From positions 2,914,001-2,978,000 of the forward strand of contig NZ_CP126739.1 in NCBI RefSeq assembly GCF_030246885.1: a stretch of 64,000 nucleotides of DNA. The letters run 5' to 3'. Shown piece after piece: positions 28,010 through 53,936 of this stretch. This stretch comes from Microbacterium sp. zg-B185. Lineage in GTDB: Bacteria; Actinomycetota; Actinomycetes; Actinomycetales; Microbacteriaceae. A program made the position numbers and the translations under genes. Positions within the stretch are counted from its first letter, which is position 1. Every line of letters starts with the position of its first letter. The notes beneath the pieces were generated by a model. That model saw only the letters and a program-made list of their open reading frames with translations, made no database searches and was not told the origin of the DNA.

Positions 28010-29677
28010 TCAGCGCTGCGCGTTGCGCCGTTCGCGACGCGTCATCGGCACAGCCGGCGCCGTCGGCTCTGCGGCCGGCGCCGGTGCCTCCGCAACGGCG
28101 GCGTGCTCCTCGCGCACGAACCCCTCATCCATCGCCGCCTCCGCGAAGGTCTCCGGCTCCGGCGGTGCGGTCAGCGGCGTCCCGTCCGCGCCGTCGATGC
28201 CCGCTTCGGCGGCGGCGGCCTTGGGGCCGCGCATCCGCTTGACGAAGTCCATCAGCTGAGCGATGTCGCGGCGATATCCGCGGAACAGCAACAGCGGCGC
28301 GATCAGGCACAGGGCCGCCACGCCGCCGACCAGGATCTCCAGGATCGCCAGACCGGTCGGCACCAGGCGCGAGATGAAGTACGACCCGCTGAAGGCCAGG
28401 ATGGCCATCAGCGCGGGGCGCAGCAGCGGTCCGTAGATGTCGTGGCCCTTCACGAAGGTGCCGTGGATGGCCCACGCGAATCCGGGGACGAGCAGCAGCA
28501 GGGTCAGGGCGCCGTAGGTGATGACGAGACCGTTGATGCCGCCCCACCAGATGCCGAAGAAATAGCCGGCGATGATGATGGGCCGCGCCACCAGGTCGTA
28601 CGCGAACTGCCGGTGCGAACGGCCGAGCGAGATGTACAGCCACGTGCGCAGGCGACCGATCGCCTGACCGAACCCGGCGATGGCCAGCAGGCTGAACAGC
28701 GTGGCCGCGATCGACCAGTTCGGCCCCAGCAGCAGCAGCACCAGCGGCTGGGCGATTCCGGCGGCGACGGCGTAGGTGGGCAGCGTCAGGTAGCCCACCA
28801 CGAGCGCCGCGCTGCGGATGTAGCGGCGGTACCGCTCCCCCTGATCGCGGAGCGCACTGAGCACCGGCAGCGCGACCCGGCCCAGCGGTCCGTTCATCTG
28901 CTGCAGGGGCAGCAGGAACAGCGCGTACGCGCGGGAGTACTGGCCGAGGGCCGCCGGGCCCAGCTGGGCGCCGATGATCACGTTGTCGAGGTTCTTCTCC
29001 GCATAGCCGAGCAGCTCCGCGCCGAAGATGCTGCCGCCGGTGCCCACCAGAGACCAGGTCTCGCGCACGATCCGCGGCGGACCGAAGCGGGGTCGCACGA
29101 TCGACCAGAGCACGACCAGGCGCACCACGAACTGGGCGCCGGCCATCGCGACCAGCGACCAGTAGCCCCAGCCCAGGAGCGCCGTGACCACCCCGGCCAC
29201 GACGCCGAGGGCCATGGTGGACACATCCAGCGTGGCCAGGGTGCCGAAGCGCAGGTCCTTGGTCGCGCGTGCCTGCAGCGGCATCACCAGGCCGCTCAAG
29301 AACACGCCGGGCGCCATCAGCAGCGTCACGGCCACCAGCCGGGGTTCGTTGAACAGCAGGGCGATCAGCGGTGCGCACAGCGCCACGACGATCGAGAGCA
29401 GGATGCCGATGAACGCCGACAGCCACAGCAGGCTCTGCCACACCCGCTCGCTGAGGTCCTTGGCCTGGATGATGGCGCCGGTCATGCCGAAGTCGCGGAC
29501 CAGCTCGGCGATGCCCATCACCGCGCCCACCATGGCGATCAGGCCGAAGTCGGCGGGGGTGAGCAGCCGCGCCAGGATGATGGTGGAGCCCATCTGCAGC
29601 AGCGCGCGGCCCCACAGGCCGCCCATCGTCACCATGACGCCGCGCGCGGCCTTCTGCGCGAGGTTCGGGTGACTCAT
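28010..29677 (-). CDS. Polysaccharide flippase / exporter (WzxC/TuaB-like)
   Basis: Product of 555 residues, MOP superfamily, with 12-14 membrane segments and the family opening GLWGRALLQMGSTIILARLLTPADFGLIAMV. The segment AELLGYAEKNLDNVIIGAQLGPAALGQYSRAY is a strong WzxC/TuaB match. It adds a cytoplasmic tail of about 90 residues rich in Ala, Pro and Glu ending RRERRNAQR, which is unusual. ATG overlaps the stop of the GT2 gene upstream as ATGA. It is the last gene of the minus-strand operon Wzz-like, Wzy-like, GT2, Wzx-like. It would export the second glycan of the window. Confidence 0.9.
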   Translation of the reverse strand: MSHPNLAQKAARGVMVTMGGLWGRALLQMGSTIILARLLTPADFGLIAMVGAVMGIAELVRDFGMTGAIIQAKDLSERVWQSLLWLSAFIGILLSIVVALCAPLIALLFNEPRLVAVTLLMAPGVFLSGLVMPLQARATKDLRFGTLATLDVSTMALGVVAGVVTALLGWGYWSLVAMAGAQFVVRLVVLWSIVRPRFGPPRIVRETWSLVGTGGSIFGAELLGYAEKNLDNVIIGAQLGPAALGQYSRAYALFLLPLQQMNGPLGRVALPVLSALRDQGERYRRYIRSAALVVGYLTLPTYAVAAGIAQPLVLLLLGPNWSIAATLFSLLAIAGFGQAIGRLRTWLYISLGRSHRQFAYDLVARPIIIAGYFFGIWWGGINGLVITYGALTLLLLVPGFAWAIHGTFVKGHDIYGPLLRPALMAILAFSGSYFISRLVPTGLAILEILVGGVAALCLIAPLLLFRGYRRDIAQLMDFVKRMRGPKAAAAEAGIDGADGTPLTAPPEPETFAEAAMDEGFVREEHAAVAEAPAPAAEPTAPAVPMTRRERRNAQR

Positions 29678-30522
29678 GGCATCGCCTGCCGTGAGGTCTC
29701 GTCGCGATTCCAGGCGATCTCGCGCTCGGCGCGCAGCAGCCGCGCGGCGCGCCGGCGCGTGATGGTGTGCACCGCGGTGTATCCCGCGAAACCCAGCCAG
29801 AGCTGCGGGCGTCGCCAGACGCGACGGGCGAGCGTGCGCGCACCGACGCGGGCGACCGGCGGCGCCATCTCGGGATAATGCAGGGCGAGCTGCTTGTTGC
29901 CGGCGGCGATGCGCGTGTTGCGCTTGACCAGCGCCGAGAGCGAGCCGGGGCTCGCCACGGAGAAGAAGACGTCGTCGGGCGTGTACCGCTCCGGCGGGGT
30001 GAACAGGCGCTGCACGAACAGGTCGTCGGCGATCACCGGCGGAAAATCCGCGAACCGGGCGCGGCCGTCACTGCTGAGCATGTAGATGCCCGAGCCGATG
30101 TGTCCGGTGGCGCGGTAGTCGGTCAGCTCCCAGACCGCGTAGTGCTGCCGCACCCACCAGGAGGACGACGGCTGCACGGTCATCCGCGGAGCCGCCACCA
30201 GCGCGTTCTGCGCGTGCAGCCCGTCCGCCAGGGAAAGCAGATCCGAGCCGGTCACTGAGACGTCGGCGTCGACGTAGACGACCGGATAGACCCGGATCAG
30301 GTCGTGTGCGGCGTTGAGGGCGGCGATCTTGGACGCTTCGGGGATCTCCAGCACCCGGATCGGACCGCCGACCTCGCGGGCGCGCTGAGCGGTGCGATCC
30401 GTGCAGCCGTTGGCGACGACGATCACGTCGAGCGCGTCCGCGGCATCCAGCAGCCGACGCAGCGTTGCGGCGATCAGGGCCTCTTCGTTGTGTGCGGGAA
30501 TCACCACCGTCAGCTGGGTCAT
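29674..30522 (-). CDS. Glycosyltransferase family 2
   Basis: Product of 282 residues. It has TVVIPAHNEEALIAATL, VIVVANGCTDRT, the DxD-type YVDADVSVTG and a downstream VIADDLFVQRLF (acid/base region), the pattern of processive-like or polyprenyl-linked GT2 enzymes. The start at 30522 overlaps the polymerase stop as ATGA. An upstream in-frame ATG lies inside the polymerase gene and is rejected. A C-terminal hydrophobic patch LWLGFAGYTAVHTI suggests membrane contact. Substrate unknown. Confidence 0.87.
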   Translation of the reverse strand: MTQLTVVIPAHNEEALIAATLRRLLDAADALDVIVVANGCTDRTAQRAREVGGPIRVLEIPEASKIAALNAAHDLIRVYPVVYVDADVSVTGSDLLSLADGLHAQNALVAAPRMTVQPSSSWWVRQHYAVWELTDYRATGHIGSGIYMLSSDGRARFADFPPVIADDLFVQRLFTPPERYTPDDVFFSVASPGSLSALVKRNTRIAAGNKQLALHYPEMAPPVARVGARTLARRVWRRPQLWLGFAGYTAVHTITRRRAARLLRAEREIAWNRDETSRQAMP

Positions 30523-32099
30523 CGGGTTGCCACCGCCGCGGGTGCGTCGCGTTCTGCCGTCACCGGATCGGATTCCGGTTCCGGCCACCTGTCGGCGCCG
30601 TCGGTCATCGCCCACGCCCCGATGCCGAGCAGCACGCTGAGCATCAGGAGCGTCTGCATGAAGGCGAACGCGTCGTAGAAGAACATGGCCGTGGCGTACC
30701 CGACCGCGGAGGTGGCGATCGCCAGCGCCAGGTAGGCACGGGAGGCCGGCACGCCGCGGCGGAACGCGAAGCGGGTGAGCACGAAGATCGGCCACACCAG
30801 CAGCACGACCAGCCCGAGAACCCCCAGCACGCCGGATTCCAGCAGCGAACCCAGCCACTGGTTGTCCAGGATGTCGGCGTTGGCGTCATCGCCGACCACC
30901 ACGCGGCTGCCCAGGCCGGTGCCGGCCAGGGGCGAGTAGCTGAACTCGGCGAACGCCTGCGGCAGGTCCGCCAGCCGGCCCTGACCGGGCAGTCCCACCG
31001 CGGCCATCTGCGAGGCGATCAGCCCCTGTACGTCCAGCAGCGACAGCACCATCGATTCGAACAGCGCCGGCAGCACCATGGCGACCAGCACCACCATGGG
31101 CACCGCGATCAGGGCGAGCAGACCCGCCAACTTCGGACGCACCAGCAGGATGAACAGGTACATCGCGCCCAGGGTGACCACGCCCGTGCGCGACACCGCC
31201 GACAGCATCCCGAGGATCATGACGCCGATCGCGGCCGCGTAGAACAGCTTGCGCGTGAACGCGAACCGCGGCCACGGGCTGAACTTCATCAGGTAGATCG
31301 CCAGCGGGATGATCATGCAGAACAGCACCGCCAGGGCGATCGGATGCTGGGACGACGCATACGCGCGCGCCCCGCCGGCGCGCAGGGACTCGCCCTCGTC
31401 GCGCAGCAGGATCAGCGGCAGGAACGTGTTCAGCTCCAGGAAGATGTTGCGCCGGGTCAGCCGCTCGAAGAACGCGAAGAACCCGACGACCGCGCCGCCC
31501 AGGACGATCACATTGAGCAGGATCATCGTGATCTGCTCGGTGGAGAGCATCTGGCGCACCAGCACGATCGTGGACAGCAGGAACGCCAGCTGGAAGACGT
31601 TGGCGAAACCACCCCCGATCAACCCGGTCTCGGTCAGGGTCACCGCGTTGACCATCAGCGACGCGAACGCCGTCCACAACGCGATCGCGATCGGCCAGCC
31701 CCATACCACCGGCTTCCAGTCGCGGGTGCCGCGCAGGAACACGGTCACCGCGAGCGCGATCAGCAGTGCGGCGATCACCACGCGATACGGCTCCAGGGCG
31801 AATCCGACCTGGATCGGCAGCGCGTAGCGGCGGATCGGGACGAACAGGATGACCGCGGTCAGCACGAACAGCATGGTCGTCCAGTTGAAGACGACGCGGC
31901 GGAAGACGTACAGGCCTCCGGCCACCAGCAGCACGCCGCCGACGAGCAACGGCTCGAGGAACAGCACCGCCAGCAGCACCACGACCCCCGCGACCACGGC
32001 GATCACGATCGACAAGGGCGCGCGCGGCAGGCGGGACGCCCGCACGGTGCGGGTCGGCGCCGTGCCCCGAGGTGGCTCTGCGGTCTTCACATCGACCAT
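30519..32099 (-). CDS. O-antigen polymerase/ligase family membrane protein (Wzy-like)
   Basis: Product of 526 residues with about 12 membrane segments beginning after a basic N-terminus (PLSIVIAVVAGVVVLLAVLF). The family features are the segments RAYASSQHPIALAVLF and SPLAGTGLGSRVVVGDDANADILDNQWL, the loop region of the Wzy_C/O-antigen ligase group. It lies between a Wzz-like and a GT2 gene, so polymerisation of the second glycan is the likely role. Start MVDVK at 32099; the upstream gene ends only seven bases before. The C-terminal tail is acidic. This is the second Wzy-type protein in the window and is not close to the one at 7556. Confidence 0.87.
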   Translation of the reverse strand: MVDVKTAEPPRGTAPTRTVRASRLPRAPLSIVIAVVAGVVVLLAVLFLEPLLVGGVLLVAGGLYVFRRVVFNWTTMLFVLTAVILFVPIRRYALPIQVGFALEPYRVVIAALLIALAVTVFLRGTRDWKPVVWGWPIAIALWTAFASLMVNAVTLTETGLIGGGFANVFQLAFLLSTIVLVRQMLSTEQITMILLNVIVLGGAVVGFFAFFERLTRRNIFLELNTFLPLILLRDEGESLRAGGARAYASSQHPIALAVLFCMIIPLAIYLMKFSPWPRFAFTRKLFYAAAIGVMILGMLSAVSRTGVVTLGAMYLFILLVRPKLAGLLALIAVPMVVLVAMVLPALFESMVLSLLDVQGLIASQMAAVGLPGQGRLADLPQAFAEFSYSPLAGTGLGSRVVVGDDANADILDNQWLGSLLESGVLGVLGLVVLLVWPIFVLTRFAFRRGVPASRAYLALAIATSAVGYATAMFFYDAFAFMQTLLMLSVLLGIGAWAMTDGADRWPEPESDPVTAERDAPAAVATR

Positions 32100-32106: not shown

Positions 32107-33129
32107 CTACGCGTGCGTGGGCTGGGGCGATCCGGAGTCGGTGCCGTGCTCGGGAGCGTTCGGGTCGGTGACGACGGCGATCCCCTCCGTCCGCATCCGG
32201 CGGCGCATGGGCTGGGGCGCATCCGACGCACCGGCCTCCGCTGTGGCCTCGTCTGTGCCGGCAGCGCCGGACATCACCGGCACGGCCTCGTCGTCGCGCG
32301 TCTGGGCATCGGCGGTGGACTCGTCCAGGTCGTCGGGGGCGTCGTCCTCGTCCTCGCCATCGGTTCGGTCGTCGCCGGCGACCTCGCGGCGGCGGCGGCG
32401 GTCGCGGACGGCCTCGACGATCAGCGCGAGGGCGATGAAGAAGATCATCACGCCGACGGCGACCACGATCACCGGGATGGCCGGGTTGCTGCCCTCGCCG
32501 GAGTCGGCGACCGGAGCGTTGAGCACGTCCAGCGTCAGGCGGATCTCCTCGGAGACGCCCCACTCGCGCTGCTGTGCGCGGATCAGATCGGCGAAGACCT
32601 CGGTGGCCTCGTTGGCGATGAGCTCCGCGCGGGCGGCCGAGGTGGAGGTGCCCACGATGTCGATCAGGGGCAGCGAGAGGCGTCCGCCGAATCGCTCATC
32701 GCCGGCCGGCTGGGTCGTGCGGCGCGCCGCGGTGATCCCATCGCCGTCCTCGAAATCGCCGACGCGGTCCGCCACCGCCTGGGCGACCTCGTCGGACGAG
32801 GCGATGTACGCCAGGATGATGGCCGAGTCGGCAAGGTCCAGCGGAGTGGCGTCCTCGACGATCAGCTCCTGCGTCGGAGTGGTCCCGTCCGCGTTCGGCT
32901 GCGGCAGCGCCTGCGCGGTCCCCGGGATCTCGACCTGGAAGAAGTTCGGCTGCGGCGAGGCCAGCAGCACGGTCGACGACGCGGTATAGGTCTTCTGCAC
33001 GCGCGTCGTGATGGCGCCGTCGTGAATCGTCAACCCCGCGAGGAGTCCGGCGATGATCGCCACCACGAACCCGACGATCAGCAGAACCTTCTGCCGCAGC
33101 AGGCGCTCCAAATACTTCGGCTTCTCCAT
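32107..33129 (-). CDS. Wzz-like chain-length determinant without kinase domain
   Basis: Product of 340 residues. Membrane segment 1 (about 15-35) is followed by an extracytoplasmic domain with YTASSTVLLASP near its start and a helical region (ARAELIANEATEVFADLIRAQQ); membrane segment 2 is at about 210-235. The order is that of polysaccharide co-polymerases. A cytoplasmic tail of about 100 residues is very acidic, with no Walker motifs and no tyrosine cluster, so any kinase would have to be separate. GGGGGAGAG precedes ATG 33129. It is first in its operon, divergent from the plus-strand operon starting at 33387, and probably sets chain length of the second glycan. Confidence 0.82.
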   Translation of the reverse strand: MEKPKYLERLLRQKVLLIVGFVVAIIAGLLAGLTIHDGAITTRVQKTYTASSTVLLASPQPNFFQVEIPGTAQALPQPNADGTTPTQELIVEDATPLDLADSAIILAYIASSDEVAQAVADRVGDFEDGDGITAARRTTQPAGDERFGGRLSLPLIDIVGTSTSAARAELIANEATEVFADLIRAQQREWGVSEEIRLTLDVLNAPVADSGEGSNPAIPVIVVAVGVMIFFIALALIVEAVRDRRRRREVAGDDRTDGEDEDDAPDDLDESTADAQTRDDEAVPVMSGAAGTDEATAEAGASDAPQPMRRRMRTEGIAVVTDPNAPEHGTDSGSPQPTHA

Positions 33130-33386
33130 ACAGCACTCTCCCCCAGCTATTTCTCGGGACAGAGCGCACCCCGCGCGCCGTCACCGGTGCGACGCAATGG
33201 CGGGCCGCCACCCAACACTTCCATTGACATGTTTCGTCCGTGTGAACGGACGTGAACAGCATGTCCCGGATCGTGCCCCAGACTTGCATGAGCGACGGCA
33301 ATTGGCAATTCTGGGGGAGCCGAGCACACCCGCCGCAGGGCGATCTACTGGGAGATCGCGATCTGCGGGGCAATGGGGAGGGGGAA
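33130..33386. promoter_or_regulatory. Divergent promoter region between the two arms of the second glycan locus
   Basis: These 257 bases separate start codons facing opposite ways, so promoters for both operons should lie here. CGTCCG (33235-33240) and CGGACG (33247-33252) form an operator-like inverted repeat with a six-base centre. TTGACA is at 33224-33229, but no good -10 hexamer lies 16-18 bases after it. No gene is seen. Confidence 0.45.
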
Positions 33387-34397
33387 GTGACGGTGACTGA
33401 CGCATGCCTGGAAACGGGCGCAGAAGCACGGGGCGACGTTTCGCATGCCCCGGCTGCACCGGCCACCGCGACCGTTGCGGTGTGCACGCGGGACCGGCCT
33501 GACCTGCTGACCGCCGCGCTGACGGCGCTTCAGGCGGCGCTGCCCACCGACACCCGCATCCTGGTGGTGGACTCCGGCTCCCGCTCCCCCGACACCTCGC
33601 GCGTGGCGCGCAGCGCGAACGTCGACTACGTCAGATCCGACGTCCCGGGGCTGTCGATCGCGCGCAACCTCGCCCTGGCCTCCAGCCTCAGCGACTGCGT
33701 CGTCTTCACCGACGATGACTGCATCGTCGAGCCGGGATTCCTCGCACCCCTGCTGGCGCCTTTCGCCTCGGCGGCGGTCGGCGCCACGACCGGCACCCTG
33801 CGCGATGCCACGGCCCGCGGGCGTGCGCCGGTGGGCGTGCCGCCGCAGACCCTGCGGCGCACGCGGGACGGATTGGACGCCGGACACGGCGCGCTGATGG
33901 CCTTCCGCCGCGAGACGCTGCAGGGCCTGGGCGGCTTCGATCCGCTCCTGGGCGCGGGGCGGCGGTTCGGCGGCGCCGAGGACATGGACGCGTTGTGCCG
34001 TGTGCTGCACGCCGGGTTCGAGGTCGTGCGCGTGCCGGACGCCGTCGTCACCCACGTCTACACCCGCTCAGACGAGGATTACCTGCGCCTGAACGACAGC
34101 TACGGTCTGGGCATCGGCGCCATGTGCGCCAAGTGGCTGCGCACGCACCGCACCGCCGGCGCGACGCTGACCGGGCTGGTGCTCCGCCGCGGCCTCAGCC
34201 GGTACGTGCGCCGCTTCGGCAGCGCGCGCACGCGCCGCGGGCAGAGCCGCTACCTCCGGGCCGTCGCGCGCGGACTGATCGAGGCACGCCGCATCCCGCT
34301 GCAGGGCCGGGTCTTCGCGGACCTCACCCCACCGCAGAGCGTGCCGGCGGCGCAGGACGCTTCCGACGGCGCCACGACGGAACGGGCCACCGGATGA
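33387..34397 (+). CDS. Glycosyltransferase family 2
   Basis: Product of 336 residues. [30 protein letters not shown], the DxD-type [14 protein letters not shown] and a later [16 protein letters not shown] give a complete GT2 pattern (galactosyl/rhamnosyltransferase-like). GTG 33387 has GGGAGG at 33376-33381 and is the best start; a second GTG lies at 33393. It is the first gene of the nine-gene plus-strand operon that carries the fatty-acyl module, with the next start overlapping its stop as ATGA. Acceptor unknown. Confidence 0.87.
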
Positions 34398-34942
34398 GCG
34401 GCAAGCTTCAGGGGATCGTGCGCTCACTCGTGGACCCCCGCACCTACGCGCAGGCGTTCCGGCTGCTGCACTTCGCCTCGTACTCGCACGTCCAGCCGGT
34501 CCGGCGGCTCACGCGGGGCGCGAACGTGAGCTTCGCCCCGAACGTGTCGTTCCGAAACGGCGAGCGCATCACGATCGGCGCCGGCACCCACATCGGCGAG
34601 CACAGCATCGTCTGGGCCGGCAATTCCACCGGCCGCATCACCTTCGGCGAGAAATGCCTGCTCGCCCCGCACGTCACGATCACCGCATCCAACTACGGCA
34701 CCGCGCCCGGCGAATTCATCATGGACCAGCCCAAGATCGAAGCGGACATCACCATCGGCCGCGACGTGTGGCTGGGCGCGAACACCGTCGTCCTGGCCGG
34801 CGTGACCATCGGCGACGGCGCGGTCGTCGCGGCCGGCGCCGTGGTCACCAAGGACGTGGAGGCCGGAGCGATCGTCGGCGGGGTCCCGGCCAGACGCATC
34901 GGCTGGCGCGGCGGCATCGCGCCCGAAACGGCGGGTGCCTGA
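34394..34942 (+). CDS. Left-handed beta-helix acyltransferase
   Basis: Product of 182 residues with hexapeptide turns [55 protein letters not shown] and the tail [14 protein letters not shown]. The segment [12 protein letters not shown] replaces the usual His-containing loop seen in the other acyltransferases here, so the catalytic base is not obvious. It is coupled to both neighbours by overlapping codons. It probably acetylates the second glycan; donor could also be another short acyl-CoA. Confidence 0.83.
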
Positions 34943-35948
34943 CGTGACCCACGCCTACGACCTCTCCACGGTCATCGTGAACTACAACACGCCCGCCGAC
35001 ACCGCCGAGTCCGTCCGCTCCCTGCTGGCCACGACCGAGGCGCGCGTGCAGGTCATCCTCGTGGACAACGGCTCTTCGGACGGCAGCGCCGAGACGCTGC
35101 GCGAGCAGTTCCCGGAGATCACCGTGATCGACGCCGGTGCGAACCTCGGCTTCGCCGCCGGGGTCAACCTCGGCGCCCGCAGTGCGCAGTCCCCCTGGGT
35201 GCTGCTGCTGAACCCCGACGTGGTCGTCCTGCCCGGCGCCATCGACGCGCTGCTCGCGTTCGCGACCGCGCATCCCGAGCACGGCCTCTACGGCGGCCGC
35301 ACGCTGCGGCCCGACGGGACGACCGATCCCAGCTCCTGCTGGGGAGCGATGTCGCTGTGGTCGCTGACCTGCTTCGCCACCGGCCTGAGCACGCTGCTGC
35401 GCCGCTCGGTGCTGTTCGATCCGGAATCGCTGGGACGCTGGGAGCGTGACACGGTCCGCGAGGTGCCCGTCATCACCGGGTGCCTGCTGCTGATCTCTCT
35501 GGCGAACTGGAAACGGCTCGGCGGCATGGACGAGCGCTTCTTCCTCTACGGCGAGGACGCCGATTTCTCGGCCCGCGCGCGCGCCGAGGGACTGCGCCCG
35601 GTCATCGTCCCGGACGCGGCGATCATCCACGCGGTCGGCGGGTCGACCGCCTCCAGCGGACGCAAGATGAGCATGGTGATGGCCGGCAAGGCCACCGTGC
35701 TGCGCACCACGTGGCACCCCGCCGCTGCCCGGGTCGGCATCGCGCTCCTGCAGGCGGGCACCGCCCTGCGAGCGCTGCCCGGACTGCTGCGCCGTCGCGA
35801 GGGCATGTGGACCGGGGTGTGGCGTTCGCGACGAGACTGGCGCGCCGGCTACCCCGCCGCCAAGACCACCCTGTTCGGCTTCGCTCCAGATCCGCACGAC
35901 CCGCACCCTGGCACCCACCATCTGCACGCCGAAGGAGCACACCGATGA
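34935..35948 (+). CDS. Glycosyltransferase family 2, rhamnosyltransferase-like (WbbL type)
   Basis: Product of 337 residues. [47 protein letters not shown] and [13 protein letters not shown] are the typical WbbL dTDP-rhamnosyltransferase motifs, followed by [23 protein letters not shown] with the catalytic-base region. Two GTG codons (34935 and 34944) are possible starts; both overlap or follow the preceding stop closely. AAGGAG near its 3' end serves the next gene, whose ATG overlaps this stop. A rhamnose or related deoxysugar donor is likely from family knowledge. Confidence 0.88.
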
Positions 35949-37678
35949 ACACCGTCCCCACCACCGCCGTCGACGGGCTGCGCATCAGCGCGCGCGACCT
36001 CGGCAACGAGCACGGCATCCTGTACTACAGCACGCCGGAAACGACCTCCTACCGCGGCTACGCCGACCTGGATGAGCGGGCGCGCCGCCTCGGGCACGCT
36101 CTGGTGCAGCGCGGGCACGGGATCGGCGACACCGTCGTCCTCGGCGTCAGCGACGCGCTCACCGTGGCGGACACCGCATTCGGCGCGATGTACGCCGGCC
36201 TCGCGTTCGTCCCGGCCCCCGTCTCCGGCCCTGCCGTCGCCGCCGGTCTGGTCCCCACCCTGGCGCGCATCTCGGCAGCGGCCGAAGCATCCCTGTTGCT
36301 GGTCGACGCGGCCGTTCGCGACCGTTTGGGTGATGACATCGCCCAGTTCGGGATGCCGGTGCTCGTGCTCGAGGAACTCCTCGGCGAGGGCGACCCGGAC
36401 GCCTGGACGCCGCCGCCGATCGACGGCGACACGATCGCCTACCTGCTGTTCACCTCGGGCTCGACCGGAGACCCCAAGGGGGTCATCACCACCCACCGCG
36501 GCGTCGTGGAGACCTCACGCGCGTGCGTGCCTCTGTTCGGGCTGGACCGGGACGCGACCTTGGTCGGCTGGGCGCCCATGCACCACATCATGGGGCTGGC
36601 CACGCAGGCGCTGTTCCCCGCGATCAACGGCGCGAAGGCCGTCGCCTGCGCGACGGAACTGTTCCAGCGCCGCCCGATCTTCTGGCTGCAGCTGATCAGC
36701 AAGCACCGCGGCACCAGCAGCGCCGCGGGCAACTTCGCCTTCGCCCTGTGCACGCAGCTGGCCACCGACGAGCAGATCGCCGAGCTGGACCTGCGCAGCC
36801 TGAGGACGCTGTTCACGGCGAGCGAGCCGGTGCGGCCCGAGACCGTCCGCGCCTTCGTGGAGCGCTTCGGCCCCACCGGGATCACCGAGGACGCGATCGC
36901 GCCGCTGATGGGCATGACCGAGGCGATGCTCATCTCCGGAAAGTCCGTCACCGACGCCCTCACCATCCGACGTTTCGACGCCGCCGCACTCGAATCCGGC
37001 CGACTGGTGCCCTCCGCGGGCGCAGGGTCCGTCGAGTGGGTCTCCTGCGGGCGCTGGACCGACCGCACCAGCGTCGTCATCGTCGATCCCGACACCCTGA
37101 TGCCTGTGGCAGAGGGCGTCGTAGGGGAGATCTGGGTGTCCTCGCCCATGGTCTCGCCCGGCTACTTCCGCCGCCCGGACGCGACCGCAGAGACCTTCGG
37201 ACGCACCCTGCCCGGCGATGACCGGTCCTACATGCGCACCGGCGACCTGGCCGCGATCGTCGACGGCGAGCTGTACGTCACCGGTCGCCTCAAGGAGATG
37301 CTCATCATCCGCGGCCGCAACCTGTATCCGCAGGACATCGAGGCCGCCGCACGGGCACTCTCGCCGGCGGTCGGCATCGGCGCCGTCTTCGAACTCGCCG
37401 GTCACCCCTCCGCGGTCGGGTTGGCGTTCGAGGCGTCCGCCGAAGCGCTCGCCGAGGCGGGAGAGACGGCGGACTCCCTGGCCGAACTGGTCCGACAGCG
37501 GCTCGTCCCCGGCGTCTCGCTCCCCTCACTGGCCGTGGCGGTGGTCGCCGAGGGCACCCTCCCCCGCACCCCCACCGGCAAAGTGCGCCGTCAGCCGACC
37601 CGCGCACAACTCGAATCGGGCGCCCTCGCGACATTGCATGCGAGCGGCTTCAAGCCGATCGCCACCCCCACGCTCTGA
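35945..37678 (+). CDS. Fatty-acyl-AMP ligase-like AMP-binding enzyme, copy 1
   Basis: Product of 577 residues. ANL superfamily: P-loop LLFTSGSTGDPKGV (about 160-173), APLMGMTEAM, adenylate-binding YMRTGDLAAI and hinge GRLKEMLIIRGRNLYPQDIE. The GRNxYPQDIE and C-terminal GKVRRQPTR signatures are those of FAALs, which make fatty-acyl-AMP and load it onto a carrier protein rather than CoA. The Lys of TPTGKVRR would be the adenylation lysine. It is followed by a second FAAL, an ACP and a PPTase in the same operon, so transfer to that ACP is the natural inference. Chain length is unknown. Translation is coupled to the glycosyltransferase before it. Confidence 0.88.
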   Translation: MNTVPTTAVDGLRISARDLGNEHGILYYSTPETTSYRGYADLDERARRLGHALVQRGHGIGDTVVLGVSDALTVADTAFGAMYAGLAFVPAPVSGPAVAAGLVPTLARISAAAEASLLLVDAAVRDRLGDDIAQFGMPVLVLEELLGEGDPDAWTPPPIDGDTIAYLLFTSGSTGDPKGVITTHRGVVETSRACVPLFGLDRDATLVGWAPMHHIMGLATQALFPAINGAKAVACATELFQRRPIFWLQLISKHRGTSSAAGNFAFALCTQLATDEQIAELDLRSLRTLFTASEPVRPETVRAFVERFGPTGITEDAIAPLMGMTEAMLISGKSVTDALTIRRFDAAALESGRLVPSAGAGSVEWVSCGRWTDRTSVVIVDPDTLMPVAEGVVGEIWVSSPMVSPGYFRRPDATAETFGRTLPGDDRSYMRTGDLAAIVDGELYVTGRLKEMLIIRGRNLYPQDIEAAARALSPAVGIGAVFELAGHPSAVGLAFEASAEALAEAGETADSLAELVRQRLVPGVSLPSLAVAVVAEGTLPRTPTGKVRRQPTRAQLESGALATLHASGFKPIATPTL

Positions 37679-37698
37679 GAGAGACGGATATCCTTCCC

Positions 37699-39408
37699 AT
37701 GCCCCAGCCCACCACCCTCGTCGAGAGCCTGCAGGCCACCGCCGACATGCACGGCAACGAACGCGGACTCCGCTTCTACGACGCGCCGGAGTCCTCCGCT
37801 GTGCGCGGCTGGGGCGACCTGGACGTACGGGCTCGCACCATCGCGGCGGCGCTGTCGGCCGAGGGTTTCGGAGCGGACGACACCGCCGTCATCGCCCTGG
37901 AACCGGGCCTGCTGTGGGCGGATGCCGCATACGGCGTCCTCTACGCCGGGCTCGGCTTCGCACCCATGCCGGTCGCCGGCCCCGCTCTGGCCGCCCGGAT
38001 CGCCGCCCTCGCGCAGGCGGCGGCCGCCACCGTGCTGGTCGCCGACCAGTCCGTGGTCGACCTGCTCGGCGAAGAAGTCCACACGCTCGGCATCCGGGTG
38101 CTCACGGTCGAGGAGCTCGTCGAAGCCGGCGACCCGCAGTCGTGGATCGCTCCGGCCGTCACCGCGGACTCGACCGCGATCCTGATGTTCACGTCCGGTT
38201 CCACCGGCGACCCCAAGGGCGTCATCGCCACGCACGGCAGCCTGCTGGCCACGGCGCGCGCGTGCGCGGAATCGCTGAGCATGGGCTCCGAGTCGACCGC
38301 GGTGGGCTGGTCTCCGCTGCACCACGCGATGGGCCTGCTGCTGCAGGTGATCACACCGGCCAGCACCGGCGGGCAGTCCGTGGTCACCGCGACCGCACAG
38401 TTCCAGAAGCGTCCGATGCTCTGGCTGCAGCTGATGAGCACGCACCGCGCGACGGTCAGCTTCGCCGGTAACTTCGCCTTCGCCCTGTGCACGCAGCTGG
38501 CCACCGACGAGCAGATCGCCCAGCTGGACCTCTCCAGCCTCGAGGTGCTGCTGTCCGGGAGCGAGCCGGTCCGCATCGACACGGTCAACGCGTTCCTGGA
38601 GCGCTTCGCCGCCACCGGGCTCTCCGCCACCACGGTCGCCCCCGCGATGGGGATGACCGAGGCGATGCTGATCTCGGTCAAGCCCGCGGGCGAACCCTTC
38701 GTCGCCCTCGAGGTCGACGCCGAGCAGTTCGAATCCGGCACCCTGGTGCCGGCCCTCGAGGGCCGCACCGTGCAGATCGTCTCCTGCGGCCGGGCGATCC
38801 CGAGCACCGATCTGGCCATCGTCGACCCGGAGACCCTCTGCGCGGCCCCGGAGGGGACGATCGGCGAGCTGTGGATCTCTTCTCCTTCGGTCTCGCCCGG
38901 ATACTTCCGCCGACCCGACGCGACGGCCGAGACCTTCGGGCATCGCCTCGCCGGCGACGAGCGGGACTACCTGCGCTCGGGCGACCTGGCCGCGGTTCTG
39001 GACGGCGAGCTGTTCGTCACCGGCCGGCTCAAAGAGGTCATCATCCTGCGCGGACGCAACATCTACCCCCAGGACATCGAAGCCGCCGTCGCCGCACTGT
39101 CGCCGTCGCTGGGGATCGCCGCGGCCTTCGAACTGGACGGCGCCCGCGCCGGGGTCGGCGTGGTGATCGAAGTGGACGAGGAGACGATGGCGGAGGCGGG
39201 CGAGACCCTGCAGGGCCTCGGCATCCTGGCCCATGAGAAGGTCACCTCGCACTTCTCGGTACCGGCGGTCTCGGTGACGCTCACCACCGTGGGCAGCCTG
39301 CCCCGCACCGCCACCGGCAAGGTGCGCCGCAAGCCCACGCGCACGCTCCTGGAAAGCGGCGGGCTCCCGATCCGTCACTGCGCCGGATCCCCCGTTCCCA
39401 CCCGCTGA
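37699..39408 (+). CDS. Fatty-acyl-AMP ligase-like AMP-binding enzyme, copy 2
   Basis: Product of 569 residues, a tandem paralog of the preceding gene with shared blocks such as GNFAFALCTQLATDEQIA, SPGYFRRPDATAETFG and GRNIYPQDIEAA. It has the full adenylation set: LMFTSGSTGDPKGV, APAMGMTEAML, YLRSGDLAAV, GRLKEVIIL and RTATGKVRRKPTR. The core-motif Lys residues are intact in both copies, so neither looks dead. Two active ligases could load two different acyl chains, or act on different carriers. Clear divergence outside the motifs shows the duplication is not recent. A 16-base tandem repeat follows before the ACP gene. Confidence 0.88.
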   Translation: MPQPTTLVESLQATADMHGNERGLRFYDAPESSAVRGWGDLDVRARTIAAALSAEGFGADDTAVIALEPGLLWADAAYGVLYAGLGFAPMPVAGPALAARIAALAQAAAATVLVADQSVVDLLGEEVHTLGIRVLTVEELVEAGDPQSWIAPAVTADSTAILMFTSGSTGDPKGVIATHGSLLATARACAESLSMGSESTAVGWSPLHHAMGLLLQVITPASTGGQSVVTATAQFQKRPMLWLQLMSTHRATVSFAGNFAFALCTQLATDEQIAQLDLSSLEVLLSGSEPVRIDTVNAFLERFAATGLSATTVAPAMGMTEAMLISVKPAGEPFVALEVDAEQFESGTLVPALEGRTVQIVSCGRAIPSTDLAIVDPETLCAAPEGTIGELWISSPSVSPGYFRRPDATAETFGHRLAGDERDYLRSGDLAAVLDGELFVTGRLKEVIILRGRNIYPQDIEAAVAALSPSLGIAAAFELDGARAGVGVVIEVDEETMAEAGETLQGLGILAHEKVTSHFSVPAVSVTLTTVGSLPRTATGKVRRKPTRTLLESGGLPIRHCAGSPVPTR

Positions 39409-39416
39409 CCCGAGAC

Positions 39417-39474
39417 CGACGCACACCGACATCGACGCACACCGATATCGACGCACACCGATACCGACGCACAC
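39417..39474. repeat. 16-bp tandem repeat, about 3.6 copies, upstream of the ACP gene
   Basis: Units CGACGCACACCGACAT (39417), CGACGCACACCGATAT (39433), CGACGCACACCGATAC (39449) and a partial unit CGACGCACAC (39465) run directly into AAGGAG at 39475-39480. They fill the gap between FAAL copy 2 and the ACP start, so copy number would change the untranslated spacer but no protein. Confidence 0.9.
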
Positions 39475-39491
39475 AAGGAGAGCCGACGCCC

Positions 39492-39773
39492 ATGTCAGAA
39501 CACCTCACTCCCGCCCAGACCGCCCAGGCACCGCAGTCGGATGTGGCCGCGTGGCTCATCGACCGCATCCGCTTCTACGACCAGGTGGATGCCGCGGAGG
39601 TCACCCTCGAGGCGCCCGTGGCCGAGCTCGGGCTGGACTCGATCTACGTGATGACCCTCTGCGGTGACATCGAGGACACGTACGACATCGCGATCGATCC
39701 GACCTTCTTCGCGGAGTTCGGCACGCTGGGCGAGGTCGCCGACGCGCTCACCGCTCGTGTCGCAGCAGCGTGA
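39492..39773 (+). CDS. Acyl carrier protein
   Basis: Product of 93 residues with one carrier domain. The phosphopantetheine attachment motif is GLDSIYVM with Ser50 as the modified residue; the helix-2 sequence DSIYVMTLCGDIEDTYDI and later DPTFFAEFGTLGEVADAL are typical of PKS/NRPS-type carriers rather than the FAS-II AcpP (which has an LGADSLD motif). AAGGAG lies 11 bases before the ATG. It stands between the two FAALs and a dedicated PPTase, so it most likely carries the activated fatty acid to the HHxxxDG transferase downstream. Confidence 0.9.
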   Translation: MSEHLTPAQTAQAPQSDVAAWLIDRIRFYDQVDAAEVTLEAPVAELGLDSIYVMTLCGDIEDTYDIAIDPTFFAEFGTLGEVADALTARVAAA

Positions 39774-39783
39774 GAAGACCCGC

Positions 39784-40389
39784 ATGAGCACCTTGACGCA
39801 CACCGGCACGCGCCTGCCGAACGTCTCCGGCACGACCCGGATCGGCGACACCGACGTGGTGTGGCGCCTGGGATCCGCCGGCCAGGTGCGGCGCGCCTCC
39901 GTCTCGGGCGTCGCCCATGCCTGGGCGGAGGAACTGGTCAGCGACCACGGACTGTTCCCCTGGCGCGGCCTGGCCCAGGCTCATCAGTGGGCCAAACCGC
40001 GACCGGTCGGCGCTCCGGCGGCGGACGTGAGCATCTCCCACAGCGGCGGCATGATCCTCGTGGCCGCGTGCCTGGGCGCGTGCGTGGGCGCCGACATCGA
40101 AGCGGCGCCCTTCAACGCGTTCACCTCCGCGAGCCTGCTCCGGCGCATGTGCACCCCCGCCGAGGCCGCGTACGCGGCCGGATTGCCCGATGACGAGCGG
40201 CGCAGCTACCTCGCACGGGTCTGGACCGCGAAAGAGGCCATCGTCAAAGCCGACGGCGCGGGCCTGGCGCTGGATTTCCGCACGCTGACCGTCCAGGTGG
40301 ATGCCGGCATCCCCCCTGCGCCCTTCGAAGCGCACATCGCCGTGCTGGCCGACCGCACGCCGCCCGCGATCGAACGACTGACCATCTAG
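39784..40389 (+). CDS. 4'-phosphopantetheinyl transferase (Sfp/AcpT type)
   Basis: Product of 201 residues. It transfers phosphopantetheine from CoA to the Ser of carrier proteins. Visible motifs are VGADIEAAPF (Mg-binding Asp104 and Glu106) and WTAKEAIVKADG (Trp147, Lys150, Glu151, Lys155), the standard pair for the Sfp superfamily; SISHSGG (about 83-89) matches the upstream CoA-contact motif. The N-terminal half is short and divergent. Its position ten bases after the ACP stop strongly indicates the ACP as its substrate, making the acyl module self-sufficient. Confidence 0.9.
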   Translation: MSTLTHTGTRLPNVSGTTRIGDTDVVWRLGSAGQVRRASVSGVAHAWAEELVSDHGLFPWRGLAQAHQWAKPRPVGAPAADVSISHSGGMILVAACLGACVGADIEAAPFNAFTSASLLRRMCTPAEAAYAAGLPDDERRSYLARVWTAKEAIVKADGAGLALDFRTLTVQVDAGIPPAPFEAHIAVLADRTPPAIERLTI

Positions 40390-40396
40390 GAACCCG

Positions 40397-41737
40397 ATGA
40401 CCGCGCTTCGCACGCCCACCGCCGCACCCGGCACCCCGCCGACGAGCACCCGGCGCCGCGCGGTGCACGCCGAGTTCATGCAGATCTGGGAGGAGGGCTA
40501 CGTCTCCAACCACATCTCCTTCGAGAACATGCACGTCCCGGGGCTGTTCATCATCGACGGCGCCCCGCTGCGGCGCGACGACGGCACGCTGGACCGCGCG
40601 AAGATCCTCGCCTACATCGACGCCACCATGGCCAGTCACGCCGACTTCCGCATCCGGCTGCAGCGCTCCGCGCTCGGGCTCACGCCGCCGGCCTGGGTTC
40701 CGGACGAGGACTTCGACCTGGCCCGCCACGTGCTCTTCACCGAGGACACCGCCGACGCGGCGACCGCCGACCTGCGCCGGCTGTCCGGCGCGTACGACGG
40801 GCTGATGTCGCTGAAGCACCCGCTCTGGCGCACGCGCGTCACCGAGCTCAGCGACGGCACTGTCGCCCTCGGCACCGTCATGCACCACGCCAGCCTGGAC
40901 GGGCTCTCGGGCATGAAGACCTTCTCGGCGATCTGCCAGAAGACCGCCGACCAGCCCCTGCCTGCCCCGGTCGACCCGTGGTCGGGAGTGCGTGCCGCGA
41001 CGGCGTGGGAGCTGCCGCTGCTGGCACTGCGGCAGTGGTGGCAGCGCCAGCCGTCGGCCGCCGCCGCCTGGCGGTCGTACCGGTCCAAGCCGTTCCTGCG
41101 GCGGGTGCGTCGCGTCGCGGCGCGCGTCCTGCTGCCGGTGCGCTTCGGCAGAGGCGGTGAGGCCGCGCGCACGCGCCTGCTCCCCCCGATCCACTCCGCC
41201 TATCGCCGGATGGATGCCGGTCTCGTCGGTCGCCGAGCCCGCGAGCTGGGCGGCAGCCTGAGCGACCTGCAGGTCGCCGCGATCATCGGCGCGTGGCGCG
41301 GTCCGCAGCGCATCGTCCGGCTCCGCTTCCCGGTCTCGTACCACTCCACGGATGCGCCGAACGTGCGCAATCACGTGCGCGACATGGAGGTCGCCGGCGA
41401 TGCGGATGCCCCGCTCACCGAGACGATCGTGCGGGTGAACGAGCAGGTCGCCGCGCGCGAGAGCGCGTTGGACGGAGCACTGGTGGAGGGCTATCCGATC
41501 GGATACAGCACCCTGCTGCCGTGGGTCTCGCGCCCGCGGTACTTCTGCGGCGGAGAGGTCCGCGCGCTGATCCCCTTCCCCGCCAGCCTCGGCACCGACC
41601 AGCTCGCCGCCGCCGGCATCATGTACAACGGCTCGCTGTTCATCGGCGCGAACATGCCGGCCGCGCACGACGTGGAGGCCACCGTGGGGCGGATGTTCGA
41701 GCTGATGACCGGCGCGCCCGACCCCGGTCGTCCGTGA
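40397..41737 (+). CDS. HHxxxDG acyltransferase (WS/DGAT, PapA or condensation-like)
   Basis: Product of 446 residues. The active-site motif MHHASLDGLSG (His164 as base, Asp168) marks the CoA-dependent acyltransferase/condensation superfamily. Sequence around FMQIWEEGYVSNHISFENMHVPGLFIIDG, LKHPLWRTRVTEL and RLRFPVSYHSTD agrees best with the wax-ester synthase/DGAT side of that group. In mycobacteria, superfamily members of the PapA type move acyl chains from carriers to sugars of surface glycolipids. By analogy this protein would transfer the ACP-bound acyl group to a sugar or polyprenyl-linked glycan. That is inference; triacylglycerol synthesis is the main alternative but would not explain the neighbours. 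Confidence 0.82.
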   Translation: MTALRTPTAAPGTPPTSTRRRAVHAEFMQIWEEGYVSNHISFENMHVPGLFIIDGAPLRRDDGTLDRAKILAYIDATMASHADFRIRLQRSALGLTPPAWVPDEDFDLARHVLFTEDTADAATADLRRLSGAYDGLMSLKHPLWRTRVTELSDGTVALGTVMHHASLDGLSGMKTFSAICQKTADQPLPAPVDPWSGVRAATAWELPLLALRQWWQRQPSAAAAWRSYRSKPFLRRVRRVAARVLLPVRFGRGGEAARTRLLPPIHSAYRRMDAGLVGRRARELGGSLSDLQVAAIIGAWRGPQRIVRLRFPVSYHSTDAPNVRNHVRDMEVAGDADAPLTETIVRVNEQVAARESALDGALVEGYPIGYSTLLPWVSRPRYFCGGEVRALIPFPASLGTDQLAAAGIMYNGSLFIGANMPAAHDVEATVGRMFELMTGAPDPGRP

Positions 41738-42720
41738 CCGCCCCGCCGGCGGCGCCCACGATCTCCGTCGTCATCCCCTCCTATCAGCGCCTGGAGCGGA
41801 TCCCCGCGCTGGTCAGCGCCTACCTCCAGCAGGGCGCCGACGAGGTCGTGGTCGTGCTGGACGGACCGCACCCGCGGTGGGTGGAGCACCTGTCCGCGAC
41901 CGCAGCAGACGAACGGGTCCTGGTCACGGAGCTGCCACAGAACGTCGGTCTCGCGCTGGCGCGGATCGCGGGCCTGCGGGTCGCCACCGGCGAGATCGTC
42001 CTGGCGGTCGATGACGATGTGGTGCCGCTCGAGGGCTTCGTCACCCGGCACCGGGAGTTCCACGGCTCCGGCGGCGACCGCGTGCTGATGGGCTACATGC
42101 CGGTCGCCGTGCCGCCGCGTCGCGGACGCGATGACGCGCCGACATTCGTCTACGCGCGCGACTACGAGAAGCAGGCCGCCGCGTGGCGCAGCGGAGACTC
42201 CGCCACGATCCTCGGCTCGCTGTGGGGCGGCACCCTGAGCATGCCACGTGGTCTCTACGCGCGTGCCGAGGAGCTGAAGCCGTCGGTGCGCATCGAATAC
42301 AACGAGGACCTCGATCTCGGCCTGCGCCTGCAGCGACTCGGGGCGACGGCATCCTTCGATCAGCATGCGCAGGCGGCGCACCATCATCAGCGCGGGTGGG
42401 AGTCCTACCTGCGCGAGTGCACACTGCGCGGCGCGGCGATCGCCGACCTGGAGGCACGCTGGGGAACCCGCCCGGCGCAGCTGACTCCGATGATCGTGAT
42501 CCCGCCCGGGTACAGCCGTCCGCTCGGCTGGGTGCAGCGGCGGATCGCCGGCCGCGACCGGGCCGGTCTGCTGGAGCACGCCCTCACCCTCGCCTACCGC
42601 GCCGCCGGCGCGGTCGGACGCTGGAGCATCCAGGACGGGATCACGCGGATGGTGCGCCGCGCGCTCGCGATGCGCGGCTACCGGCTCGCGAGTGAGCAGC
42701 GGGACGCCGAGGGTCGCTGA
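41734..42720 (+). CDS. Glycosyltransferase family 2
   Basis: Product of 328 residues. It has TISVVIPSYQRLERIPAL, EVVVVLDGPHPRWVEH, the DxD-type VLAVDDDVVPLEGF and a later IEYNEDLDLGLRLQRLG with a catalytic-base acidic pair. GTG 41734 overlaps the acyltransferase stop as GTGA. It is the last gene of the nine-gene operon; a 119-base gap with no strong terminator precedes the response regulator. His-rich AHHHQRGW follows the acidic pair. The acceptor is unknown, but coupling to the acyltransferase suggests the same glycan or glycolipid. Confidence 0.87.
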   Translation: MTAPPAAPTISVVIPSYQRLERIPALVSAYLQQGADEVVVVLDGPHPRWVEHLSATAADERVLVTELPQNVGLALARIAGLRVATGEIVLAVDDDVVPLEGFVTRHREFHGSGGDRVLMGYMPVAVPPRRGRDDAPTFVYARDYEKQAAAWRSGDSATILGSLWGGTLSMPRGLYARAEELKPSVRIEYNEDLDLGLRLQRLGATASFDQHAQAAHHHQRGWESYLRECTLRGAAIADLEARWGTRPAQLTPMIVIPPGYSRPLGWVQRRIAGRDRAGLLEHALTLAYRAAGAVGRWSIQDGITRMVRRALAMRGYRLASEQRDAEGR

Positions 42721-42791
42721 AGGACAGCGCCCGTGGGGTGCCGCATCATATCCGCGCGTCGGCAAAAGGGTCGGAACCGCTCATCGGGACG

Positions 42792-42797
42792 TAGGCT
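42792..42797 (+). promoter_or_regulatory. Putative -10 element (TAGGCT) for the response-regulator gene
   Basis: TAGGCT lies 42 bases before the ATG at 42840, which has its own GGAGGGG. It matches the TAnnCT hexamer seen before several genes here. No clear -35 partner. Confidence 0.35.
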
Positions 42798-42839
42798 GGC
42801 GCTGAGGAAAAGTCCATCCAGGTGCGGAGGGGTACGGCC

Positions 42840-43807: not shown

Positions 43808-44266
43808 GTGGTTGACCAGATCGCGACACCCGCCACCGCGGTCGTCATCGAAGACGACCCGCAGGTGCAGACGCTGCTCGTCGAAGTATTCGAGTCGGCC
43901 GGATTCACCGTCGTGGCCGTCGACAACGGCGAAGACGGCGTGCTCGCCGTGCGCACGCATCACCCCATGATCACGACGGTCGATGTCAATCTCCCGGGGA
44001 TCGACGGCTTCGAGACCGTGCGGCGCATCCGCGATCACAGCGACACCTTCGTGATGATCGCCTCGGCGCTCGCCGACGAAGCGGATGCGGTGCTGGGACT
44101 GTCCGCCGGCGCGGACGACTACATCACCAAGCCCTTCCGGGTGCGCGAGCTGCGCGCCCGGATCGAAGCGGTCATGCGTCGGGCGCGCAGCACTCAGGCC
44201 GGCTCCGGCGGTCTGGCCGGTGTCGGCAACCGGACCACGGCCGAGTCCCCGCAGCAGGCGAGCTGA
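43808..44266 (+). CDS. Receiver-only response regulator
   Basis: Product of 152 residues. The receiver is complete: EDD (15-17), phospho-acceptor Asp59 in TTVDVNLPG, Lys in ITKPF. Instead of a DNA-binding domain it ends in about 30 polar residues rich in Gly, Ser and Ala. Such proteins often act as phosphate sinks, phospho-relays or protein-protein regulators. GTG 43808 has GGAGG at 43797-43801, an ideal six-base spacing, so the upstream in-frame ATGs are not needed. It lies two bases before the histidine kinase gene, its likely partner. Confidence 0.88.
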   Translation: MVDQIATPATAVVIEDDPQVQTLLVEVFESAGFTVVAVDNGEDGVLAVRTHHPMITTVDVNLPGIDGFETVRRIRDHSDTFVMIASALADEADAVLGLSAGADDYITKPFRVRELRARIEAVMRRARSTQAGSGGLAGVGNRTTAESPQQAS

Positions 44267-44268
44267 GC

Positions 44269-53923: not shown

Positions 53924-53929
53924 TAGACT
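53924..53929 (+). promoter_or_regulatory. Putative -10 element (TAGACT), leaderless start of kinase gene
   Basis: TAGACT lies seven bases before GTG 53937 with no Shine-Dalgarno sequence, the same geometry as at 47047. Located in the 271-base gap that separates this kinase from the divergent GT2 synthase. Confidence 0.45.
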
Positions 53930-53936
53930 CGCGAAT

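Follow-up and report, generated by a model that had tools for sequence, protein, structure and literature searches.

The nine-gene operon

The window analyzed here is a stretch of 64,000 nucleotides from Microbacterium sp. zg-B185, whose genome is a single contig of 3.57 Mb (G000:C1:2914001-2978000). Its subject is an operon of nine genes (Table 1), a candidate route for placing fatty acids on a glycan, in which three glycosyltransferases of family GT2 (GT2a, GT2b and GT2c) and a left-handed beta-helix protein (LbH) stand with two fatty acyl-AMP ligases (FAAL1 and FAAL2), an acyl carrier protein (ACP), a phosphopantetheinyl transferase (PPTase) and an HHxxxDG transferase (HHT). An earlier description made from the letters of the window alone (here, the sequence-only reading) had given the order and motifs of these genes; open reading frames, translations and family scans confirmed all nine on the plus strand, with GRN.YPQDIE in both ligases, Ser50 of the carrier in LGLDSI, and MHHASLDG in HHT. 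Start and stop codons, described there as mostly overlapping, do overlap by 4 bp at three of the eight junctions, and for the other five (one 1 bp apart, the rest with gaps of 20, 83, 10 and 7 bp) the wording was slightly strong. The 83-bp gap, between FAAL2 and ACP, holds a tandem repeat (39417-39474; 16-bp unit, 3.6 copies, 95% matches). A promoter and terminator scan over 33000-43000 found nothing.

The family scan agreed with the sequence-only reading that no ketosynthase is found among the nine proteins, and it likewise returned no nonribosomal peptide synthetase (NRPS), polyketide synthase (PKS) or other product-forming gene among them. A carrier and its modifying enzyme are both in place: ACP has its serine in a DSL/I-type motif, and PPTase has the GxDxE and KEAxxK motifs. 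Because the whole genome has three matches to PF00550 (PP-binding) and two to PF01648, the operon ACP and PPTase included, this PPTase is plausibly dedicated to this ACP.

Table 1. Genes of the operon, of the divergent operon and of the distant priming-transferase family in the window (type I and type II loci are those of relatives, defined in the text)
Name	Position	Strand	Assignment	Evidence
Priming transferase	2448..4013	+	Priming transferase family, polyprenyl-phosphate sugar-1-phosphate	PF02397, 220 bits
Wzx	28010..29677	-	Wzx-type flippase	PF13440, 234 bits
GT2m	29674..30519	-	GT2 glycosyltransferase	PF00535, 59 bits when the longer frame 29677-30858 is scanned; translation
Wzy	30519..32090 (start uncertain)	-	Wzy-type polymerase	Wzy_C PF04932, 32.2 bits (cut-off 31.7)
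Wzz-like	32107..33129	-	Wzz-like membrane protein	Hydrophobic stretches and position; homolog in 37/38 type I and 8/8 type II loci
GT2a	33387..34397	+	GT2 glycosyltransferase	PF00535, 61 bits; homolog in 38/38 type I and 8/8 type II loci
LbH	34394..34942	+	Hexapeptide acetyltransferase-like	PF00132, 51 bits; 38/38 type I and 8/8 type II loci
GT2b	34944..35948 (GTG start; 34935 also possible)	+	GT2 glycosyltransferase	PF00535, 80 bits
FAAL1	35945..37678	+	Fatty acyl-AMP ligase	PF00501; insertion; catalytic motifs
FAAL2	37699..39408	+	Fatty acyl-AMP ligase, in a paralogous clade apart from FAAL1	PDB matches; insertion; motifs; tree
ACP	39492..39773	+	Free-standing carrier, phosphopantetheine site LGLDSI (Ser50)	PF00550, 45 bits
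PPTase	39784..40389	+	4'-Phosphopantetheinyl transferase, Sfp-like by length and motifs	PF01648, 62 bits; GADIE, WTAKEAIVK
HHT	40397..41737	+	Divergent WS/DGAT-like HHxxxDG acyltransferase	WS_DGAT_cat, 63 bits; TIGR02946, 75 bits; tree; fold
GT2c	41734..42720	+	GT2 glycosyltransferase that goes with ACP-PPTase-HHT operons	PF00535, 62 bits; 8/8 type II and 0/38 type I loci

Class of the ligases and of the transferase

Alignment placed in both FAAL1 and FAAL2 an insertion of 17 to 18 residues after GMTEA, plus five further residues, which we take to be the published FAAL insertion. It is shared with an orphan FAAL encoded elsewhere in the same genome and with one ligase from a cassette containing acyl-CoA dehydrogenases (ACAD), and it is missing from four ligase-like proteins of the window genome, presumably acyl-CoA ligases; this upholds the proposal that the pair is of FAAL rather than fatty acyl-CoA ligase type. 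The P-loop, the A8 region and the lysine of GKVRR are intact in both. Among PDB sequences FAAL2 matched 7r7e (the loading part of a PKS; 275 bits), 3kxw (253), FadD23 8hd4 (211) and 3pbk (198), with CoA ligases at no more than 95 bits. For both ligases the NCBIfam ranking was headed by an NRPS/PKS model, matched across its first 565 positions; PRK07768, a model with a CoA-ligase name, and several FAAL models came next, and every score lay under the respective cut-off. We assign FAAL1 and FAAL2 to the FAAL class, with acyl-AMP formation and loading of ACP as their predicted activities. In a 31-row tree the two fell into separate supported clades (13 rows, 98/98; 5 rows, 97/88), and since each clade holds members from other genomes, the pair predates this species and its two ligases probably select different acyl chains. 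The orphan FAAL stands alone at 1654.9-1656.6 kb of the contig (L009:14874-16634) and shares 62% identity with FAAL1 across the region matched. It was rejected as a marker of a second module: its 20-kb stretch has no homolog of the window ACP, PPTase or HHT. A PP-binding match is located at a distance of 15 kb, immediately beyond that stretch. In the FAAL tree this orphan and the lone FAAL of genome G380 each cluster with an in-operon copy from genome G536, as if copies had moved.

For the transferase, the sequence-only reading had proposed a PapA-type enzyme. Pfam scores, PDB matches and phylogeny rule this identity out and point to the wax ester synthase/diacylglycerol acyltransferases (WS/DGATs): WS_DGAT_cat is the sole significant Pfam family (62.9 bits; cut-off 23.6), Condensation reaches 12 bits (E = 0.084; cut-off 30.6), PapA_C gives no match at E ≤ 5, and the best PDB sequences, the nearest solved relatives, are the WS/DGATs 6chj and 7nxg. 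The curated WS/DGAT model TIGR02946 was missed by a wide distance (75 bits against a cut-off of 310). An AlphaFold2 model built from eight sequences (mean pLDDT 68.5, pTM 0.71) had 6chj as its first structural match (TM 0.56 by query, 0.63 by target), with further matches to 7nxg, condensation domains, plant hydroxycinnamoyl transferases and PapA5 (1q9j); predicted fold and motif together place HHT in the HHxxxDG superfamily (CoA-dependent acyltransferase fold).

Conservation of the locus among Microbacteriaceae

The operon diverges from a minus-strand set to which the sequence-only reading had attributed Wzx, Wzy and Wzz functions. Wzx is clear, as are the GT2 enzymes; the Wzy_C match lies just above its cut-off, and the Wzz-like protein, for which no Wzz Pfam match was obtained, is named by shape and position alone. 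HHT searches covered 398 genomes of the family Microbacteriaceae (matches in 28) and 366 genomes of the genus (matches in 40). The outcome was 47 distinct genomes, the window's included, with an HHT of the glycan group; three are common to both glycan lists, and the remaining matches are canonical WS/DGATs. Neighboring genes were located by tblastn with the window proteins in stretches of up to 20 kb, some of which are cut by contig or fetch ends.

Three types of locus were distinguished. All 38 type I loci have GT2a-HHT-LbH, with GT2b next in 27 and anywhere in the stretch in 36, and homologs of Wzy, the Wzz-like protein and GT2m lie divergent to it in 37. Wzx immediately follows GT2m in 28 of the loci and is somewhere in the stretch in 35. 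GT2c and ACP occur in none of the 38; a FAAL lies in the same stretch in two, in neither case within the GT2a-HHT-LbH operon. Type II is the arrangement of the window: GT2a-LbH-GT2b-FAAL(1-3)-ACP-PPTase-HHT-GT2c in all eight further loci (nine genomes with the window), with a divergent Wzy homolog in seven and a Wzz-like homolog in eight (locus L042 is cut inside the latter gene). Wzx was found in three of these eight stretches, some of which end early. A second HHT copy is present in two type II genomes; it follows the first copy in G380 and precedes the FAALs in G536. At the five type III loci HHT adjoins a cassette of FAAL-ACAD-ACP type (FAAL and ACAD in 4/5, ACP in 5/5), and G400, G404 and G491 have type II and type III loci together. 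Named carriers of the glycan-group HHT include Microbacterium yannicii and Microbacterium allomyrinae, the latter with a type II operon. The survey of gene order that the sequence-only reading had suggested thus returned eight further genomes with the same kind of operon and, as a ninth, Herbiconiux daphne, whose type II locus is complete, with two FAALs, and which has a separate FAAL-HHT pair (L165) besides; such recurrence means that the arrangement is not chance. GT2c homologs are also present in Herbiconiux and on a 16.9-kb contig (L166) of an uncultured Demequina metagenome-assembled genome, where ACP-PPTase-HHT-GT2c lies beside GT2a-LbH-GT2b with no FAAL on the contig, which ties ACP to HHT. 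On that contig GT2b matches as two pieces that overlap but are read in different frames, which may reflect a frameshift. In samples of the order and of the phylum (396 genomes each, four candidates scored per genome, so that very divergent HHTs could escape), matches outside the family were all below 82 bits versus at least 205 bits inside; no strong match to the HHT group was found there, the Demequina genome being the one exception. The linkage of the operon to GT2 and Wzx/Wzy genes is tight and conserved across type I and type II, and the HHT locus appears to be a conserved Microbacteriaceae Wzx/Wzy locus in which the membership of the transferase is newly seen.

The sequence-only reading had also tied the gene set to glycosyltransferases. 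The exact set of the window was indeed found only in their company, but related sets do occur away from them: the Herbiconiux pair L165, and locus L047 of genome G331 (FAAL-ACAD-ACAD-ACP-PPTase-HHT), where neither inspection by eye over 20 kb nor a search for homologs of those in the window showed a glycosyltransferase. Such cases fit an alternative in which the acyl chain is bound for a peptide, a protein, a membrane lipid or a small specialized metabolite and the glycan genes are mere neighbors, and FAAL-ACP cassettes typically serve to start lipopeptides (PMC9113097). We nonetheless consider this distinctly unlikely, given the lack of product-forming genes among the nine and the position of HHT between GT2a and LbH throughout the type I loci.

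FAALs are rare in Microbacteriaceae. They were called at E ≤ 1e-60 with FAAL2 as the query; three candidates per genome were scored in the family scan and all candidates in 21 further genus genomes, and in six genomes (G533, G556, G613, G697, G698 and G750) the stretch near the locus was checked. A FAAL is present in 9 of 398 family genomes, with strong enrichment among those with a glycan-group HHT (6/20, window genome included, versus 3/378 others; Fisher P = 5.6e-7), and in 8 of the 21 further genus genomes, and six more genomes show one near the locus. Overall a FAAL was found in 20 of the 47 glycan-HHT genomes and none was detected in 27, so the HHT family needs no FAAL-made acyl-ACP, and the description of the module as self-contained was too strong. 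HHT in the FAAL-less genomes presumably uses acyl-CoA or the ACP of fatty-acid synthesis; FAAL is an add-on to a glycan locus that is often without it. Nine of the 20 FAAL-bearing genomes are type II, and the other eleven have FAAL-ACAD(-ACAD)-ACP-PPTase instead, at about 14 to 18 kb from HHT in ten and, in G331, directly before a second HHT (that of L047). Cassettes of this kind at L146, L147, L152-L159 and L161 lie for the most part next to priming-transferase and LbH-like genes, and perhaps they supply unsaturated acyl chains for a glycan. One more cassette (FAAL-ACAD-ACAD-ACP-PPTase; L148, genome G221) is in a genome without an HHT match in the family search.

The HHT tree comprised 70 rows: 38 of type I, nine of type II, two second copies (IIb), five of type III and 16 canonical WS/DGATs of the same bacterial family (motifs HHAMVDG, HHVLADG and HHAVADG); a short canonical row (L067, 262 aa) was left out and a weak canonical match in G742 was not fetched. 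A branch with 100/100 support divides the glycan-group HHTs from the canonical enzymes, and types II and IIb form one clade with four of the five type III rows (100/99). Of the 54 rows in the glycan group, 53 keep the second histidine and the aspartate of the motif. The remaining one, L116:9459-10721 of G480, lacks HHxxxDG and looks decayed; it lies near an ACP in a genome with no FAAL detected and is perhaps a decaying type III module. Residues 225-260 of HHT (at about 41069-41176) form a strongly cationic segment, SKPFLRRVRRVAAR, whose mean net charge is +9.1 in type II, +10.6 in type III and +10.2 in type I (range 0 to 12), versus +2.4 in canonical enzymes. As a mark of ACP-using HHTs this basic patch was rejected, the charge being similar in glycan HHTs with and without FAAL; contact with the membrane or with pyrophosphate is possible.

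Clustering with triacylglycerol synthases had been named as evidence against glycan acylation. On this point the outcome is divided: the family is that of the WS/DGATs, which speaks against the model, yet HHT is fully split from the canonical members. HHT could still be a usual storage-lipid enzyme, making wax esters or triacylglycerol and standing in the operon by accident, in keeping with its sole significant Pfam family, its nearest solved relatives and the fact that, with four of seven candidates scored, the window genome has no other match at E ≤ 1e-5. Tree and context make this hardly credible: besides the low TIGR02946 score and the branch that separates HHT from the 16 canonical rows, none of 17 canonical WS/DGAT loci has homologs of Wzx, Wzy, the Wzz-like protein, GT2 or LbH in the fetched stretch.

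Acyl-ACP is the donor for hexapeptide enzymes of the LpxA/LpxD kind. In a further alternative, HHT would draw in all genomes on acyl-CoA or on acyl-ACP from fatty-acid synthesis, with FAAL and ACP feeding another transferase such as LbH, which has a weak LpxD match (42 bits); the 27 of 47 genomes in which HHT occurs but no FAAL was detected would fit this. Such a division of labor seems very unlikely, as the NCBIfam models that score best with LbH are acetyltransferases (every one under its cut-off), the position of LbH is the same whether or not a locus has a FAAL, type II HHTs lie behind FAAL-ACP-PPTase in a clade of their own, and the Demequina contig retains ACP-PPTase-HHT without a FAAL.

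Other glycan genes lie farther out in the window. The priming transferase of family PF02397 sits about 24 kb beyond wzx, homologs of it occur around the HHT loci of some relatives, and it may start this glycan or a second one. A second glycan set is spread over 2448-8923 and 13386-17791, with the PF02397 protein, a GT2, a Polysacc_synt flippase, a weak Wzy_C protein, a GDP-mannose dehydratase, an epimerase and a protein of the UDP-glucose/GDP-mannose dehydrogenase family, and its sugars may serve either glycan. On the other side of the operon, three long open reading frames (44085-47015, 49863-51356 and 51398-53692; 976, 497 and 764 aa) gave no Pfam match at E ≤ 0.001; they lie between the gene for a response regulator at 42840-43655 and that for a histidine kinase at 53892-55589.

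A putative acyl supply line and its known parallels

Taken together, these observations favor, with a probability of roughly 0.6, a reading in which the operon is a fatty-acyl supply line added to a polysaccharide pathway of Wzx/Wzy type, HHT acylating the glycan repeat unit. The genes, their intact motifs, the FAAL type of the ligases, the distinct clade of HHT and the conserved linkage are seen in the sequences themselves. Every chemical step, and with them the acceptor and the place and order of transfer, is what we infer from these. PPTase would prime the free-standing ACP, and FAAL1 and FAAL2 would convert free fatty acids to acyl-AMP and load them on it. Through HHT, the acyl chain would then pass from ACP to the hydroxyl of a sugar, possibly the one that GT2c adds; because acyl-ACP is cytosolic, the transfer would most likely take place in the cytosol on the undecaprenyl-linked repeat unit, before flipping. 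Wzx, Wzy and the Wzz-like protein would flip and polymerize the acylated unit. The direction of the sequence-only reading was thus right, and the transferase family, the self-containment and the role of FAAL have been corrected. More tentatively, and with less confidence than the reading itself commands, these loci could make a family of surface glycans of Gram-positive bacteria in which each repeat unit is acylated by a lipopeptide-style FAAL:ACP starter plugged into an older locus, the number of FAALs (0 to 3) and the ACADs (with or without desaturation) tuning the chains, and the chains anchoring the polymer at the membrane or making it amphiphilic.

Several points weigh against acylation of the repeat unit by a FAAL-fed HHT. 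Known WS/DGAT members use acyl-CoA, and more than half of the genomes with a glycan-locus HHT (27/47) have no detected FAAL. The L047 cassette with its HHT and the Herbiconiux FAAL-HHT pair lie off the glycan locus. The FAAL-linked HHT clade is incomplete, since ten type I HHTs near a FAAL-ACAD cassette form another clade (100/99), and the HHT of L047, directly behind such a cassette, falls outside both. The cationic segment is common to FAAL-bearing and FAAL-less glycan HHTs, the HHT model, built from eight sequences, has a middling mean pLDDT of 68.5, and for a locus of this kind no biochemistry or glycan structure was found.

The nature of the product is a further matter. PapA3 of mycobacteria has the HHxxxDG motif. 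In the mycobacterial acyltrehalose pathway (FadD21-Pks3/4-PapA3), the closest characterized pairing of a FAAL with an HHxxxDG sugar acyltransferase in the literature consulted, FAAL, PKS and PapA3 are all needed to esterify trehalose to diacyltrehalose, at the cytosolic face (PMC4183827). This likeness, with the presence of GT2c in type II and not in type I, would suit a low-molecular glycolipid or lipooligosaccharide, a short glycan acylated and exported without Wzy polymerization. We regard such a product as unlikely, because divergent Wzy and Wzz-like homologs adjoin the operon in seven and eight of the eight type II loci, respectively, and FAAL-less genomes have HHT beside the same Wzy and Wzz-like genes. 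Unlike the trehalose pathway, the operon has no polyketide synthase, its HHT is WS/DGAT-like and not PapA-like, and its neighbors are Wzx and Wzy.

For a FAAL-ACP-HHT glycan locus as such, no description was found among the open-access papers listed by the searches, subscription papers being outside them. Fatty-acylated polysaccharides are themselves known. The emulsan of the Acinetobacter wee cluster, with wzx and wzy, is one; the sections of the review at hand describe no FAAL-ACP-WS/DGAT set for it, and a figure legend there marks some steps as without a gene found or with function unconfirmed (PMC12375547). Exopolysaccharides bearing fatty acids are chemically known in actinobacteria as well: those of Rhodococcus (FR2, FACEPS/mucoidan) have ester-linked stearic and palmitic acid, and the portion of that report available does not name the acylating genes (PMC12786566). 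The present locus offers a concrete gene set, one operon bringing together an acyl donor line (FAAL, ACP and PPTase), a transferase candidate and glycan genes, and the 27 genomes without a detected FAAL beside the 20 with one provide a natural comparison. An approach from specialized metabolism is seen in the nostochlorosides, made by a cyanobacterial cluster that joins a FAAL and PKS parts to a glycosyltransferase; for some of these compounds the acyltransferase is encoded outside the cluster (PMC10849952). The combination of the present locus appears in none of the cited accounts, as far as they were consulted.

With the WS/DGATs of Marinobacter (6chj) and Acinetobacter (7nxg), HHT shares the fold and the HHxxxDG motif, which has been described for WS/DGATs of triacylglycerol-storing bacteria (PMC2667194); it differs in its separate clade, its cationic 225-260 segment and its glycan-locus context. 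Were the proposed acylation correct, an enzyme of WS/DGAT fold would act on a glycan, not on storage lipid. The closest parallels for the donor line are lipopeptide starters, outlined as FAAL-ACP-C(III) for daptomycin (DptE-DptF; PMC9113097) and as FAAL-ACAD-ACAD-ACP for rotihibin (RthH-I-J-K; PMC8552735), in which a FAAL and a free-standing ACP likewise pass an unextended fatty acid to an enzyme of HHxxxDG fold. Flavors with and without ACAD both occur near the glycan loci of Microbacteriaceae. Here, in contrast, the PPTase is in the operon with one to three FAALs, and the receiving enzyme is a stand-alone WS/DGAT-like HHT in a polysaccharide operon rather than the C(III) domain of an NRPS. 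On our reading HHT would take the place of that domain and the glycan the place of the peptide, and a lipid starter cassette of NRPS type would have been reused for a carbohydrate.

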